DNA from: Rhizobium tropici CIAT 899
GTDB lineage: Bacteria; Pseudomonadota; Alphaproteobacteria; Rhizobiales; Rhizobiaceae
Reading direction: 5' to 3'
Length of the DNA stretch: 64,000 nt
NCBI RefSeq assembly: GCF_000330885.1
Contig: NC_020059.1
Location: forward strand, 3,151,001-3,215,000
A program made the position numbers and the translations under genes. Positions 12,344 through 57,290 of this stretch are shown here, in pieces. Numbering within the stretch: the first letter of the stretch is position 1; each line of letters starts with the position of its first letter. Under the pieces are notes generated by a model that was not told the DNA's origin, did not search any database, and worked only from the letters and a program-made list of their open reading frames with translations.

Positions 12344-13771
12344 ATGGATACCCAGATGCTGATCGGCTCCCGCTTCGAGGCCGGCACGGAAACGGAAGAA
12401 CGCGTTCTCAACCCGAAGACGGGCGAGACCGTTCTCAACCTGCCCGAGGCGTCACTTGGCCAGATCGATGCCGCCGTCGACGCAGCCGAAAAGGCCTTCA
12501 CGAGCTGGTCGCAGACGACGCCAAGCCAGCGTTCGGCCTATCTCCTCAAGATCGCCGACGCCATCGAGCGCGATGCCGAAGGCTTCGCCGCGCTCGAAGC
12601 GTTGAACTGCGGCAAGCCGATCAATGCCGTGCTCAATGATGAAATTCCGGCGATCGTCGACTGCTATCGCTTCTTTGCCGGCGCGGTTCGCAACCTGCAC
12701 GGCCCGGTCGCCGGCGAATATCTGCCCGGCCACACCTCGATGATCCGCCGTGATCCCATCGGCATCGTCGGCTCGATTGCACCGTGGAACTATCCGCTGA
12801 TGATGATGGCCTGGAAGCTGGCGCCAGCCATTGCCGGCGGCAATACCGTCGTCTTCAAGCCCTCCGAGCAAACACCGCTGACGGCGCTGAAGATGGCGAA
12901 GCTGCTGGCAGATGTCCTTCCCGAGGGCGTCGTCAACGTCATCCTCGGCCGCGGCGAGAGCGTCGGCAATGCGCTGATCAACCACCCGAAGATCAGCATG
13001 GTCTCGATCACCGGCGATGTCGCAACCGGCAAGAAAGTCTTGCAGGCTGCGGCCAAGACGGTGAAGCGCACGCATCTCGAACTCGGCGGCAAGGCTCCGG
13101 TCATCATCTTCGACGATGCTGATATCGACTCCGTTGTCGCCGGCATCCGCACCTTCGGTTACTACAATGCCGGCCAGGACTGCACCGCCGCCTGCCGTAT
13201 CTATGCCGACGCCAAGGTCTACGACAATTTCGTCGCCGACCTCACCTCGGCCGTGTCTAACATCAAGTTCAACCTCGCCGACGACACCGAGAACGAAATC
13301 GGCCCACTGATCTCCAAGCGCCAGCGCGACCGTGTCGAAAGCTTCGTCACCCGCGCCGCCGAACACAAGCACATGGAGATCACGACAGGCGGCAAGATCT
13401 CCGGCGAGCGCGGCTTCTTCTACGCACCGACCATCGTCGCCGGCGCGACGCAGGACGACGAGATCGTTCGCCGCGAAGTCTTCGGCCCCGTCGTCTCCGT
13501 CACGCGCTTCACCAACCCCGACGACGCCGTCACCTGGGCCAATGACAGCGACTACGGCCTCGCCTCCTCGGTGTGGACGAAGGACATCAGCCGAGGCATG
13601 CAAACCGCTGCCCGCCTGCAATATGGCTGCACCTGGATCAACACCCATTTCATGCTGGTCAACGAAATGCCGCATGGCGGCCTGAAGCAATCCGGCTACG
13701 GCAAGGATATGTCGGTCTACGCTATCGAAGACTACACGGCCGTGCGGCATGTGATGATCAATCATGGGTGA
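12344..13771 (+). CDS. Gamma-aminobutyraldehyde dehydrogenase (YdcW/PatD-like)
   Basis: A 475-residue NAD-dependent aldehyde dehydrogenase. The catalytic cysteine lies in [11 protein letters not shown] and the general-base glutamate in LELGGKAP. The cofactor-binding stretch reads [16 protein letters not shown]. The start [12 protein letters not shown] and the end [20 protein letters not shown] are typical of the YdcW/Prr group, which oxidises 4-aminobutanal, the putrescine breakdown product, to GABA. AAGGGAG precedes the ATG. Following a polyamine importer directly, it fits putrescine uptake and oxidation. The putrescine aminotransferase needed for the first step is not in this window. Confidence 0.88.
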
Positions 13772-24030: not shown

Positions 24031-24747
24031 CTATATTGACCGCAGCTTCGCCTCCCTGTGCGAGATCAGCTTGTGCAGATGCACCATCATGCCGGCAGCA
24101 AAGAGCGGCGTCAGCAGATTGAGCAGCGGGATCGCCAGAAACGCGGCGATCACCAGGCCGGCCAGGAAGACCGTGAGGGCGTGCTTGACGCGGAATTCCC
24201 GCGCCTCGTCCGGCGAACGGAAACGCATGGCGGCAAATTCGAAGAATTCCCGCCCGAGCAGATAGCCGTTCACCAGAAAGAAGGCGACGAGATTGACGCC
24301 CGGAATGAACAGCAGGAACAGCGCCACGATATTGCCGACGATGACGACGCCGAGAAAGCGTAGGGAACTCTTCATCGCCGCGACGATCGGCATCGCCGTT
24401 CCCGGCGTATCGCCCGGATAGTCGCGCTTTTCCACCACTTCGGCGACATCGTCGAGAAATAGGCCGGCAATCAGCGCCGTGACCGGTGAAATCAGCAGCG
24501 CCATCGCCAATGCCAATGCAATCCCGGCGAAGATGGCAAGAAGGAATGTGAGCCAACCCGTCCAATCCGAGGTGGATGGCATAAAGCCCTGCAGCCAAGG
24601 CAATACGAGGAAATTAAAAACGCCCCGCAGGACGAACCACAGCACGAGGAGCGCCAGCAATGTAAGGCCGAGTACCTTCCAGAAAACTTTGCGCGTTTCA
24701 GGCGCAAAAAGATTTTCGAAGGAGCGGCGGGCGGCAAGGCCAATCAT
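24031..24747 (-). CDS. EI24/CysZ-like membrane protein
   Basis: A 238-residue inner-membrane protein of the EI24 (formerly DUF540) family, to which the sulfate transporter CysZ belongs. Four hydrophobic stretches are visible, with FIPGVNLVAFFLVNGYLLGREFFEFAAMR being the conserved family motif (quoted here in part: FIPGVNLVAFF and LLGREFFE). The start MIGLAARRSFENLF is chosen, 8 codons inside the longest frame, because this is the typical family start. Sulfate transport is possible but not shown; no cys genes are near. Confidence 0.8.
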   Translation of the reverse strand: MIGLAARRSFENLFAPETRKVFWKVLGLTLLALLVLWFVLRGVFNFLVLPWLQGFMPSTSDWTGWLTFLLAIFAGIALALAMALLISPVTALIAGLFLDDVAEVVEKRDYPGDTPGTAMPIVAAMKSSLRFLGVVIVGNIVALFLLFIPGVNLVAFFLVNGYLLGREFFEFAAMRFRSPDEAREFRVKHALTVFLAGLVIAAFLAIPLLNLLTPLFAAGMMVHLHKLISHREAKLRSI

Positions 24748-24955
24748 TCGTTCTACCTCTCTTGGTGGCAAATGGACACTTAAGAAGCGGTTGTATCGAT
24801 ATCAATATCCCGCAGAGATATATGAATGTGACAATTAAAAATTTGAATTATTGTAATACATTTTGCACTAATATATTCTGTACGCCACATTAGGAACAAC
24901 AACCGCAACAAGAACGGCGGCCATATCAAAATTGAATAGCCAATGGGCGTAGAAA

Positions 24956-25852
24956 TTGGCGCGACATAACATCGAAAAGACCATCAAAGAGGCGCAAAAC
25001 TTGGAAGACCTTAGCCAGAAACTTAGACAATATATAAAGATCGGCACTCCGGCCGAACGAAGAATTGCTAAGTATTTCTCCGAGCATTTGAATGAACTAC
25101 CCTTCGAGACGGCCTCCTCCGTTGCCGACAGGCTGGAATTGAGCCCGATGACGGTAGGCAGGTTTCTGCGGTCGCTCGGCTACCACGGCCTCGATGGGAT
25201 AAAGGTTCACCTCAAGGAGAATGCGCCCAGTATCACGTCGCAATTGCCCAATATCCTGGAACAGTTGCAGAAGGACGCAAGCGAAGGGCGCCCGCTTGCG
25301 ACGCAGATTGCCGAACAGGTCGAGATGCTGCAGCATATCTACAACCTCGCCGGTCAGCCGCAATGGCGCGACGCGGTTTCGACAATTCTGTCCTCCGGAC
25401 ATGTCTTTGTCACCTCTCACCCGAGTCTCGCAGGGATCGGTCGTTATTTTCGCGATCGCCTCACCTTTGCCCGCGATCAGGTCCTTTTCCTTGACGGCGC
25501 CAATGGCAGCTACATCGAGCTGTTCGGCGAGCCCGCCGAAGACGGATTGCTTGTCGTCATCGACTCCCCGAGCTTTGTCACCTCACGGCTTCTGGCTCGC
25601 TCGGCTCGTCGGGCAGGCTACAAGGTATTGCTGTTAACTGGACAATTCACGGAATGGGCGCATGAATTCGCAAACATCACGCTGTCGCTGCCGCCGCAGC
25701 GCGCCAACAGCCGTGAAAATCTTTCAGCCCTAATGGCGCTGCTGGAATATCTGGCGACTTCGGTTGCTCACGCCGCGGGCGAGGCGGCGGAAACGAGGAC
25801 GCGCCGCATAGAAGAGCTTCAGGGCATGTTCGCCCAGGCACCGCTCCGGTAA
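24956..25852 (+). CDS. RpiR/MurR-family regulator with SIS domain
   Basis: A 298-residue regulator: an N-terminal HTH_6 domain (residues ~25-85, ERRIAKYFSEHLNELPFETA; LELSPMTVGRFLRSLGYHGL) and a SIS sugar-phosphate-binding domain (~125-265). The only in-frame start is TTG at 24956; the ATG at 24943 is out of frame. No good Shine-Dalgarno is visible, so weak translation or an error in the start is possible. The gene is convergent with the pentulose kinase (5 bases between stops), and control of the polyol operon by this protein is only a guess. Confidence 0.82.
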   Translation: MARHNIEKTIKEAQNLEDLSQKLRQYIKIGTPAERRIAKYFSEHLNELPFETASSVADRLELSPMTVGRFLRSLGYHGLDGIKVHLKENAPSITSQLPNILEQLQKDASEGRPLATQIAEQVEMLQHIYNLAGQPQWRDAVSTILSSGHVFVTSHPSLAGIGRYFRDRLTFARDQVLFLDGANGSYIELFGEPAEDGLLVVIDSPSFVTSRLLARSARRAGYKVLLLTGQFTEWAHEFANITLSLPPQRANSRENLSALMALLEYLATSVAHAAGEAAETRTRRIEELQGMFAQAPLR

Positions 25853-53974: not shown

Positions 53975-54049
53975 GCTGCTATAGCTCAGGGGTAGAGCAC
54001 TCCCTTGGTAAGGGAGAGGCCGAGAGTTCAAATCTCTCTAGCAGCACCA
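53975..54049 (+). tRNA. tRNA-Thr (GGT)
   Basis: A 75-base tRNA with encoded CCA. The acceptor stem GCTGCTA / TAGCAGC pairs fully, the anticodon stem CTCCC / GGGAG encloses TTGGTAA, giving anticodon GGT. The T-arm contains GAGTTCAAATCTC. Just downstream is the lower-G+C helicase cassette. The tRNA 3' end was not found again to the right, so no att duplication is seen. Confidence 0.95.
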
Positions 54050-54218
54050 GTTTTTTCTCCGCTACTTTTCATCACTCAAGGCTCTTTGGCTTTTCAGACA
54101 CCGGTTTGCTACAGCCGTTACCCGAGGCTCTAACGTTCCGCTTAACAACCGAGAACTTTAGGGCGGTACAAATTGCTGAGACGCTACCACCTTACGGTTA
54201 GTTTGGTATAACCTTGCG

Positions 54219-54237
54219 CAAGCGGACCAGCCGCTTG
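54219..54237. promoter_or_regulatory. Hairpin upstream of helicase gene
   Basis: CAAGCGG and CCGCTTG pair perfectly around a 5-base loop, 22 bases before the helicase ATG and just upstream of the AGGAG site. It could be an operator or leader hairpin of the cassette; nothing else in 54050-54259 stands out. Confidence 0.4.
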
Positions 54238-54259
54238 TAGCAGACAGGAGTGACCGGGC

Positions 54260-56413
54260 ATGGCCTTGGAGATTGTGGTAACTACCAGCCGTTGGAAGAA
54301 TGATCCGACATCCCGAGCGCTGGTCGGCTATCTTCAAGAAAATCAATCCGTATTAGGCCTCAACGATGCCGTTATTTATTACGATTTTCCAGCATATGTT
54401 GACTATGAGGCCTCTCTTTTTCGACCGGATGTGCTCATTCTTTCGCCCTCACATGGCTTTGTTGCAGTGCGGGCTTTGGACAACTCAATGTTCCAACGAT
54501 CGAAGGAGACACTTAATGAGATCGATGCCGCACTCGATGACTTTTCAAGTAACTTGCATTCTCGCCTCATCCGTAGCCGCGAACTTCGTCGCAGCCGAAC
54601 ATCGTCCGTTGTCGAGATCCACACAATAATACTCCTTAGTCCTGACATTGGGGTATCAACCGCTGAAAGCGACAGTATAGAATCCACAGTCTGCGCGAGT
54701 TTGGAATCCCTTGCTGAGGTTCTCAAACGCGTCAGAGGAGAGCCGCTCGATGCTCCCATTGTTGCAGAGGTACGCTCTGTCGTAGAGGGAGCAAAGGCTC
54801 TAACGAAACCGTCAAAGCGGATCATCGAAGATGCAGTAAAGCAGCCGCTTGCAGCAGCGTTAGCTAGGCTGGAAAATGAGATAACGAACTTCGATGAGAA
54901 GCAACGGCGTATTGCGCTGGTGGACGTTGGCGGGCCTGCGCGCATAAGAGGGCTTGCGGGTTCAGGGAAGACGGTCATCCTAGCGATGAAAGCCGCTCAC
55001 ATCCATCTCACTAATCCCGACAGCTTAATCCTCATTACTTTTTATACGAAAAGCCTCCGAGCGACCATCAAGACGTTGGTCACCAAGTTTTATAGACTCT
55101 ACTCTGACAGCGACCCGGATTGGAAAAAAGTTCAGATTCGTCACGGATGGGGTGGTGCTAGCGTACCCGGCGTTTATTCAGATGCCTGTATGCGGAGCGG
55201 GCGACCAGCTCTAACATTGCCCGAAGCGAAACGCCTAGCAAAACGTGGCGAGACCGCATTTGGAGCCGCTTGTGCGGACCTCTTGAACAGCAATGCGGTT
55301 CGCCCATACTACGACTACGTCTTGATCGATGAGGGACAAGATTTTCCCGACAGCTTCTATCGGCTCGCGTTTCACCTCGCGAAGGGAGAACGAGACAAAA
55401 AATCGGTTATTTGGGCTTATGATGAACTTCAGGACATCTTGAATGTGAAGATTCGCCAGCCGATCGATCTATTTGGGCGGGATGAGAATGGCATACCTCT
55501 AGTTGATCTAGACAGAACATCTAACCAGGTTCCGCCTGGCGCAACTAACGACGCCGTGCTTAGCAAAGCATATCGAAATCAACGGGACGTTCTGGTTTCG
55601 GCACACGCCTTGGGGTTTGGCGTTTACAGCAATAGCGTCGTACAAATGCTAGAAAGCGCTGAGCATTGGGAAGATGTCGGGTACGAAGTACTATCCGGTC
55701 CTCTCCAAACCGGTAAGCCCGTTGAAGTCCTCAGGCCCGATCGAAATAGCCCTCTCAACATCGCAGACATTCCTGGCTGGCCTACTATTGAAACCTTCGT
55801 TGCAAGAAACCTCGAAGAAGAAGTTGATTGGGTTCTTGCACAAATCGCTTCATTCATTGGCGGAGGCCTAGAGCCTGATGAGATTCTGGTGGTTGCCCTC
55901 GATGACCGTCATGCGCGAGGATACCTCACTCGGATCGCCGAGGGATTATCATTAGTCGGCGTGTCGTCAAACAACGTAATTGCAGACCCTTACAATGAAC
56001 CACCCTTTACAATTTCAGGCAAAATCACGCTATCGACTGTTTATCGAGCGAAAGGCAACGAAGCTGCGGCTGTGATTGCGGTCGGTATTGACGCCGTCGA
56101 AACGAGATTAAGAGATGGGCGAAACAAAATCTTTACGGCCTTTACACGGTCAAAAGCGTGGCTACGTGTCAGCGGCGTGTTTCGGGCAGGGGCACCGATC
56201 ATAACGGAGCTGCAAACCGCCATCGCGAACGCTCCGAAAATAAGCTTCGTTATGCCTGACTTGAACGAAATCGAAACAATTCAGAGAGGATTCAGTAAGA
56301 AGCAAACTGCTGCACGGGCAGCGAGAGAGCAATATCTCAAAAAGCTTAGAGATGCCGGATTCTCCGATGACGAGATAGAGGAGGAAATGCAGCAAGGGCT
56401 TATAAATGAATAA
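54260..56413 (+). CDS. UvrD-like SF1 helicase with degenerate N-terminal nuclease-like domain
   Basis: A 717-residue ATP-dependent helicase. The core has a Q-motif-like DEKQRRIA (near 213), Walker A RGLAGSGKTVILAMKAA (230-246), Walker B VLIDEGQDFPD (about 354-364), motif III YDELQ, motif IV AYRNQRD (near 437), motif V STVYRAKGNEAAAVIAVG (592-609) and motif VI FTAFTRSKAWLRV (624-636). Residues 1-120 look like a NERD/PD-(D/E)XK fold: RPDVLILSPSHGFVAVRAL aligns with the D...GI.V.E.K pattern, but the E.K pair is lost. The C-terminus ends in a helical RAAREQYLKKLRDAGFSDDE. AGGAG precedes the ATG. It overlaps the DUF2290 gene by 8 bases. G+C is well below neighbours. Confidence 0.85.
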   Translation: MALEIVVTTSRWKNDPTSRALVGYLQENQSVLGLNDAVIYYDFPAYVDYEASLFRPDVLILSPSHGFVAVRALDNSMFQRSKETLNEIDAALDDFSSNLHSRLIRSRELRRSRTSSVVEIHTIILLSPDIGVSTAESDSIESTVCASLESLAEVLKRVRGEPLDAPIVAEVRSVVEGAKALTKPSKRIIEDAVKQPLAAALARLENEITNFDEKQRRIALVDVGGPARIRGLAGSGKTVILAMKAAHIHLTNPDSLILITFYTKSLRATIKTLVTKFYRLYSDSDPDWKKVQIRHGWGGASVPGVYSDACMRSGRPALTLPEAKRLAKRGETAFGAACADLLNSNAVRPYYDYVLIDEGQDFPDSFYRLAFHLAKGERDKKSVIWAYDELQDILNVKIRQPIDLFGRDENGIPLVDLDRTSNQVPPGATNDAVLSKAYRNQRDVLVSAHALGFGVYSNSVVQMLESAEHWEDVGYEVLSGPLQTGKPVEVLRPDRNSPLNIADIPGWPTIETFVARNLEEEVDWVLAQIASFIGGGLEPDEILVVALDDRHARGYLTRIAEGLSLVGVSSNNVIADPYNEPPFTISGKITLSTVYRAKGNEAAAVIAVGIDAVETRLRDGRNKIFTAFTRSKAWLRVSGVFRAGAPIITELQTAIANAPKISFVMPDLNEIETIQRGFSKKQTAARAAREQYLKKLRDAGFSDDEIEEEMQQGLINE

Positions 56414-57107
56414 AGCAGAATGGATGGCGCAAATCCGCAAGGTCTGGGACTATACAAAAGCCTTGCATGTTGACGAGATTTTTTCTGGCCCCGTAGCTCT
56501 TGAAGTGTCTGAAGACTTCAAAAGGGTAGCCGTCGATCCAAACTCGACTTACGAAGACCTTTATCTGATCGGACTTCGCGAATCCCAGTATAATATTCTG
56601 CTCAGGGATTACTCCTTCTTTCAATTCGGAGTTGGTGGTAACGACGGGGTTCGATTTGCGTACTATCCTAATCCGTTTTTCGGCGCATCCAAGACTGCGG
56701 TAGCTGAACTAACGGAAATGCAAGAATTCGTAGCAGAAGGGATCATCGACGTTGATGAGTTTCTTCACCGTGCTTCAGAAGTTAGGCGCCCCCAACATCC
56801 TCCTTTGGTCCGGTATGATTATGCGTTGGATCAATATGTCGAAGCAACGCATCCTTGTTCACATCTCCATCTCGGATTTCACGGGGAAAACAGATGGGCG
56901 GTCCGGCGGTACCTCACGGTTACCGCCTTTGCGCTGCTCGTATTTCGGCTTTTCTATCTCGAGCACTGGATGACGGCCGAACTGGTGCGGAGCGGTGAAC
57001 AGGAATTAACGATGGATAGGCTTCTTGAAATCGCTAAGACCGAATCCCGACTGCTTTATGCCAATGAATTTTCCGAAGCTGAGGGACGTCGTTTTCATCT
57101 AGCTTAA
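56406..57107 (+). CDS. DUF2290 family protein, helicase partner
   Basis: A 233-residue soluble protein. The strings LVRYDYALDQY (about 135-145) and SHLHLGFHGENRW (about 151-163), followed by the aromatic helix TAFALLVFRLFYLEHW, match the remembered DUF2290 pattern (RYDY...HLHIG...F..F....FY). The paired His residues could bind metal or act in catalysis, but no known active site is recognised. Its ATG lies inside the helicase stop region, so the two are translated together. Codon use is as A+T-rich as the helicase gene. Family function is unknown. Confidence 0.72.
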   Translation: MNKAEWMAQIRKVWDYTKALHVDEIFSGPVALEVSEDFKRVAVDPNSTYEDLYLIGLRESQYNILLRDYSFFQFGVGGNDGVRFAYYPNPFFGASKTAVAELTEMQEFVAEGIIDVDEFLHRASEVRRPQHPPLVRYDYALDQYVEATHPCSHLHLGFHGENRWAVRRYLTVTAFALLVFRLFYLEHWMTAELVRSGEQELTMDRLLEIAKTESRLLYANEFSEAEGRRFHLA

Positions 57108-57290
57108 CGTCTTCCAAAAGGTCGTTAACACGATCGCCGAGCCGTGTCTTATCTTCGTGGCAATTGAAGCGATATTCAGCGCAAACAAAGATGTTGTTGG
57201 CACTGGGCAGATTCTCCACCCCAATTCCGCTGCAATCCCCCGTTTACCCTTCTCCCATCACATCCATCCTGGCCCGGGAGAAAAGCCTCA

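Follow-up and report, generated by a model that had tools for sequence, protein, structure and literature searches.

A helicase–DUF2290 gene pair, probably an anti-phage system, is cargo of a tRNA-Thr–ddl hotspot in Rhizobium tropici CIAT 899

What are two genes of low G+C content, one encoding a superfamily 1 (SF1, UvrD-like) helicase and the other a DUF2290 protein, doing between a tRNA-Thr gene and ddl in Rhizobium tropici CIAT 899? We addressed this question on a 64,000-nucleotide stretch of contig NC_020059.1 (positions 3,151,001 to 3,215,000, forward strand; hereafter the window), for which an original prediction, made from the letters alone, had proposed a transferable defence-type module at a tRNA site. 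This proposal is supported by the patchy occurrence of the pair (3/148 genomes of the genus), by the location of its closest relative elsewhere, by the nature of the site, a cargo hotspot, and by the published action on phage T7 of a system of this kind (PMC9122126). Our overall reading, which we regard as probable, is that an anti-phage system of the Helicase-DUF2290 kind occupies the tRNA-Thr–ddl hotspot as cargo and works by the mechanism proposed below; the assignment of the window's pair to this kind of defence pair appears highly probable. The kind of system is already known, and what is added here is the loss of the nuclease site from a nuclease-related domain (NERD) of the helicase, a DUF2290 protein without a fold match and a bounded hotspot (Table 1).

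According to Rousset et al. 2022 (PMC9122126), an ATP-dependent helicase and a DUF2290 protein placed in E. coli inhibit phage T7, and the same pair is mentioned in prophage hotspots of other bacteria. PADLOC-DB also holds models for both genes (PDLC03002, PDLC02998 and PDLC02999), so the earlier statement that DUF2290 partners are absent from named systems has to be withdrawn, Helicase + DUF2290 having been both named and tested in that study. The window resembles this system in its two co-directional genes, in a full-length helicase match and in a location within a variable hotspot that conserved genes flank, and it differs in lying at a chromosomal tRNA-Thr–ddl site, whereas the cloned system lies in a P4-like satellite. 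The window's helicase, which has Pfam matches to UvrD_C_2 and UvrD-helicase, scored 411.6 bits against the PADLOC Helicase model PDLC03002 (residues 13-712 to profile positions 10-694 of 707), and its partner scored 44.5 bits against Pfam DUF2290 (PF10053, cut-off 25) and 52.1 bits against the PADLOC model PDLC02998. A further difference is that the window belongs to a diverged branch, with lower PADLOC scores than two copies of the other branch (1060 and 297 bits in one, 988 and 277 in the other, for helicase and DUF2290).

The two frames described in the original prediction (717 and 233 residues with an overlap of 8 bp, and tRNA-Thr(GGT) 210 bp upstream of the helicase start) were all present. 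Among 41 distinct DUF2290 loci, 39 were preceded on the same strand by a helicase or what remains of one, and in 36 of those 39 the helicase was directly adjacent or overlapping and undamaged over the extent of the locus. The three exceptions were a split pair (G021), a helicase remnant (G074) and a shortened helicase in one Mesorhizobium locus, and the two DUF2290 loci without a helicase (L021 and L111) were both cut by contig ends. Left out of the 41 were the repeat loci L092, L100 and L110 and a remnant in G255 (L026, no profile match), and pairs met later, namely two in G071 and those on Lactococcus, E. coli and Acinetobacter plasmids, stand outside this count. On plasmids, 50 records matched the helicase, and these include all 18 that matched DUF2290. 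Furthermore, the pairwise distances of helicase and DUF2290 correlate across 28 loci (Mantel r 0.964, 0/2000 permutations). The helicase and DUF2290 travel as a unit and their pairing is near-obligate.

Some neighbourhoods of the pair deserve mention in their own right. In G021 (L015 5039-8213), about 3.2 kb separate helicase and DUF2290, and the frames in between read like an IS66 element (by reading only). On an Agrobacterium fabrum plasmid (L088), a AAA ATPase, a SIR2 protein and an HsdR N-terminal protein adjoin the pair by annotation, and in L020 (7381-7761) a 126-residue frame with what looks by eye like a restriction-endonuclease-type domain follows it.

The pair is patchy in its distribution. 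The three matching genomes in the genus were obtained with the window's DUF2290 as query, and some trace of the pair was present in at least 5 of the 148 (the window's genome, G021, G071 with two pairs, G074, and G015 with fragments at contig ends). Pfam DUF2290 was found in 11/394 genomes of a family sample at E<=0.001 (10 above the cut-off), in 2/337 of a class sample and in 9/398 of a phylum sample, every DUF2290 genome count including the window's own genome. A wider scan of genome contigs found none with the window's DUF2290 alone as query and 19 loci with a 9-sequence DUF2290 alignment. A DNA search of E. coli genomes with a Proteus pair found nothing, and phage records gave no match for the window's helicase or for a DUF2290 of the other branch; two IMG/VR contigs encode DUF2290, one of them identical to a Paracoccus genome contig. 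When 31 pair helicases were placed in one tree with 6 NERD helicases (midpoint root for drawing; long Lactococcus branch), the former stood apart from the latter (support 100/100) and split into 8 rows (100/100), among them the plasmid copies from E. coli, Acinetobacter and Lactococcus, and 23 rows (100/99), among them the window's. On this tree the window's helicase is a member of a diverged branch; it sits apart from the E. coli plasmid copy, and its nearest row is a Rhizobiales isolate at 79% identity. The closest relative found (79% identity in the helicase, 70% in DUF2290) has a different gene neighbourhood. Because the branch rows include Deinococcales, Pseudomonas and Burkholderia, transfer of the pair between phyla is likely.

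The site itself was compared in the 29 relatives whose ddl matched best (85-94% identity), by reading about 14 kb upstream in each, two of the stretches being short at contig ends. Both tRNA-Thr and ddl were present in 26, leaving L069 and L157 (contig ends) and L073 unresolved, and all 26 carried an insert between them; with the window, inserts span 1.0-7.2 kb and G+C contents of 0.43-0.57. Of the 351 pairwise comparisons between the 27 inserts, 18 showed 200 bp or more in common, and the window's insert shares that much with 0/26 relatives, in contrast to what is expected of the core genes considered in the original prediction. The insert has sharp edges: homology with the relatives stops at the tRNA-Thr 3' end or a few bases past it (18/18 shown) and restarts at about 57212-57220, in the conserved ddl leader (18 relatives and the window shown). 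In this species group the tRNA-Thr–ddl interval is a hotspot for cargo; the roughly 14 kb upstream of 11 more distant ddl matches contained no tRNA-Thr, which confines the site to one such group. Immediately next to the tRNA, L068 encodes a tyrosine recombinase that looks intact, a remnant of whose N-terminal domain remains in L070, and L078 and L080 carry an additional degenerate tRNA piece; in the window's insert, no second tRNA piece and no integrase were found. The tRNA pieces and the recombinase fit integration at the tRNA 3' end.

Two further details of the site were seen in relatives. L073 (9344-9366) and L157 (2029-2051) each have 23 bp copied from the tRNA-Thr 3' end, a possible att site, about 4 kb and 0.9 kb from ddl, respectively, with no whole tRNA-Thr on either stretch. 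In L080 (G132, 12428-12581) and L155 (G104, 2155-2390), the first 150-240 bp of ddl are duplicated about 1.1 kb upstream of the gene; the copy in G104 has the leader, as if the edge of some elements were the ddl start.

The composition of the interval is also unusual. The low G+C content noticed in the original prediction from sampled lines holds for the whole pair, since 54055-57107 (3053 bp, G+C 0.502) is the lowest stretch of its size in the window: 0/1097 segments of equal length, taken in 50-bp steps from the rest of the 64 kb, were as low (minimum 0.556, mean 0.601). The flanking genes look ordinary (murA and ddl, named by reading translations, not by family search). Another low-G+C stretch in the window, at 24501-25500 (0.512), has a strong AT skew.

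Other relatives carry different cargo at this site. A PADLOC scan of 23 frames from 20 of the 26 relatives gave a match in 8/20: RT_UG17 in L074 and L154, which have the same cargo, Drt6 in L075, HEC-01A and B in L076, Drt3a and Drt3b in L080, SIR2 and ThsA in L082, part of pAgo in L083 and a partial AbiU match in L158. L070 and its near-copy L162 had no PADLOC match, L070 encoding a SIR2-nSTAND-TPR protein by Pfam; DUF4238 was found by Pfam in L079, and no PADLOC model matched the cargo proteins of L077, L078, L081, L087 and others. The remaining cargo includes membrane-like and pentapeptide proteins as well as unknown ones, which means that defence is not the only use of the site. A near-identical 212-residue protein whose start resembles that of an exported outer-membrane protein was seen in L084 (1408-2046), L155 (1409-2047) and L156 (13193-13831).

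Table 1. Features of the helicase–DUF2290 locus (window coordinates).
Feature	Coordinates	Strand	Basis
tRNA-Thr (GGT), proximal hotspot edge, likely integration target	53975..54049	+	ARAGORN
Variable cargo segment of the hotspot, G+C ~0.50	54050..57211	.	comparison with relatives
SF1 (UvrD-like) helicase, 717 aa, gene 1 of the pair	54260..56413	+	open reading frame call; Pfam, PADLOC; AlphaFold2
N-terminal domain, ~residues 1-180, NERD-homologous, without E-x-K	54260..54799	+	profile-profile comparison
Walker A / motif I, residues 231-238	54950..54973	+	invariant G231, G234, G236, K237, T238
Motif II DEGQD, residues 357-361	55328..55342	+	invariant D357, E358, Q360, D361
Motif V (from R596) to motif VI (to W634)	56045..56161	+	alignment of relatives
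DUF2290 protein, 233 aa, gene 2 of the pair, likely effector	56406..57107	+	PF10053 44.5 bits; AlphaFold2
Invariant D68 codon	56607..56609	+	38/38 sequences
H149-P-x-x-H153 motif	56850..56864	+	H149, H153 in 38/38; P150 in >=90%
Distal hotspot edge, conserved ddl leader	57212..57290	.	comparison with relatives

How might the pair work? The helicase was modelled by AlphaFold2 with a mean predicted local distance difference test (pLDDT) of 84.5 and a predicted template modelling score (pTM) of 0.81. The residues that we take to be motifs I, II, V and VI are intact, as the original prediction had stated, being invariant in 28/28 aligned pair helicases (the window's among them); in motifs V and VI these are A597, K598, G599 and E601, and T629 and R630, respectively. 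In addition, the first 190 residues of the 28 pair helicases match the N-termini of 6 helicases that carry the annotation of a nuclease-related domain (hhalign 95.55%, E 1.3e-8, score 57.2), and a column-shuffle control reached at most 17.4 (0/60 as high). The pair helicases share with these NERD SF1 helicases (PADLOC candidate C3a187 'NERD+UvrD'; PGAP 'nuclease-related domain-containing DEAD/DEAH box helicase') the two-domain layout, a homologous N-terminus and a related core, but the E-x-K motif, which belongs to the catalytic residues of the PD-(D/E)xK type, is found in 6/6 NERD helicases and in 0/28 pair helicases, and no DUF2290 was found beside any of the 6. The window has R71 and L73 at the aligned positions, position 71 is never E and position 73 never K in the 28, D57 is retained in 24 of them, and three more plasmid copies likewise lack E-x-K at that place (by eye). 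Judging from these alignments, the pair helicases have retained a NERD-type domain and lost its nuclease site.

The DUF2290 protein was modelled with a mean pLDDT of 90.7 and a pTM of 0.86. Besides M1, residues D68, R136, H149, H153, R163 and F175 are invariant in 38/38 DUF2290 sequences, the D/H/H/R/R set persisting even where identity falls to about 20%; Pfam DUF2290 is the one family that all 38 convincingly share. With its location on predicted strands, the conserved D/H/H/R pattern suggests an active site. Because the model is confident, Foldseek found no match for it in PDB at E<=0.001, and D68, R136, H149, H153 and R163 are invariant, DUF2290, rather than the helicase, is the likelier effector of the pair. 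That it is a catalytic effector is about an even call, and that it cuts nucleic acid is a tentative suggestion which we would not favour over its opposite. Kinship with the TumE toxin (PF20126), prompted by a likeness in a R-Y-D ... H-x-H strand motif, was rejected: the hhalign probability was 0.3-0.4%, and 14/60 column shuffles, as well as the reversed control, were equally high (22 TumE against 38 DUF2290 sequences).

In the mechanism that we propose, the helicase would be sensor and motor, loading on phage nucleic acid that is unusual or replicating, with the use of ATP, as its well-known motifs suggest, and the NERD domain without nuclease residues may be a docking or recognition part. DUF2290 would be the effector, probably a nuclease or phosphodiesterase acting through D68, H149, H153, R136 and R163; turned on by the helicase, it would cut phage or host nucleic acid and phage growth would stop. 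A possible history, to which we give well under even weight, is that of a NERD nuclease-helicase whose site died once, before the branches split, the cutting role passing to DUF2290 with its unrecognised fold and D/H/H/R site.

Several points weigh against this reading. The window's DUF2290 scores low (PADLOC 52.1, Pfam 44.5) compared with 277-297 bits by PADLOC in the other branch; the PADLOC helicase model also gives 324.2 bits on a NERD helicase without DUF2290; and the likeness to the T7-blocking system is one at the level of family models. No known nuclease family or fold matched DUF2290, either in the family search of the 38 sequences or with Foldseek, and the TumE comparison was negative. 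Furthermore, G255 has a degenerate DUF2290-like stretch (4 stops, below the cut-off) with no helicase within 17 kb, and in G074 the DUF2290 frame has stayed open with a helicase remnant next to it, which does not point to a toxic effector acting unchecked in that genome.

The roles could also be reversed. Gabija consists of two genes, the OLD nuclease GajA and the UvrD-like helicase GajB, and the window shares with it the two-gene layout with a UvrD-like helicase. In a Gabija-like arrangement of reversed roles, the helicase would be the effector, unwinding or clearing intermediates of phage replication, and DUF2290 would regulate or load it without being catalytic. We regard this as possible but rather doubtful, given that invariant D, H, H, R and R residues down to about 20% identity look more like an active site than a binding surface. 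The Gabija parallel drawn in the original prediction stands as an analogy only: the partner matches DUF2290 only, the pair has no OLD or TOPRIM partner, and GajB models reach at most 29.7 bits, as against 411.6 for PDLC03002.

The predicted fold of the pair helicase is also similar to the helicase part of Schlafen proteins (SLFN11/SLFN14), and in a Schlafen-like abortive infection the helicase would sense RNA or single-stranded DNA and DUF2290 would cut host RNA (e.g. tRNA), stopping growth. This seems unlikely to us. UvrD is as close or closer, the pair has no Schlafen nuclease core, and the Pfam match to the Schlafen group 3 helicase is weak (4/28 pair helicases, best E 0.014) and absent for the window's protein. 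Less likely still is a DNA-repair or plasmid-maintenance module of mobile elements for which defence is incidental; some pairs on plasmids do adjoin toxin-antitoxin or stability genes, but a system of this kind inhibits T7 (PMC9122126), and SIR2, AAA ATPase and HsdR-like neighbours elsewhere, together with the other defence-like cargo at the window's site, speak against it. Lastly, ordinary core chromosomal genes, to which the intact open frames between housekeeping genes might point, can practically be dismissed, since 0/26 relatives have the pair at the site, its occurrence in genus and family is patchy and its G+C content is an outlier.

A helicase-activated DUF2290 effector is the reading that we prefer, and the pair provides a testable model of a listed system in which one can ask which part cuts and what the role of the dead NERD domain is, with D68, H149, H153, R136, R163 and the helicase Walker A as named target residues. 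As the diverged branch shows, models built around one branch score members of the other weakly. The tRNA-Thr–ddl hotspot is a small, well-bounded place for seeking more defence genes in this group. If the cutting role did move to DUF2290, this family would represent a novel class of immune effectors acting on nucleic acids, and the window would hold a copy from a little-sampled branch.
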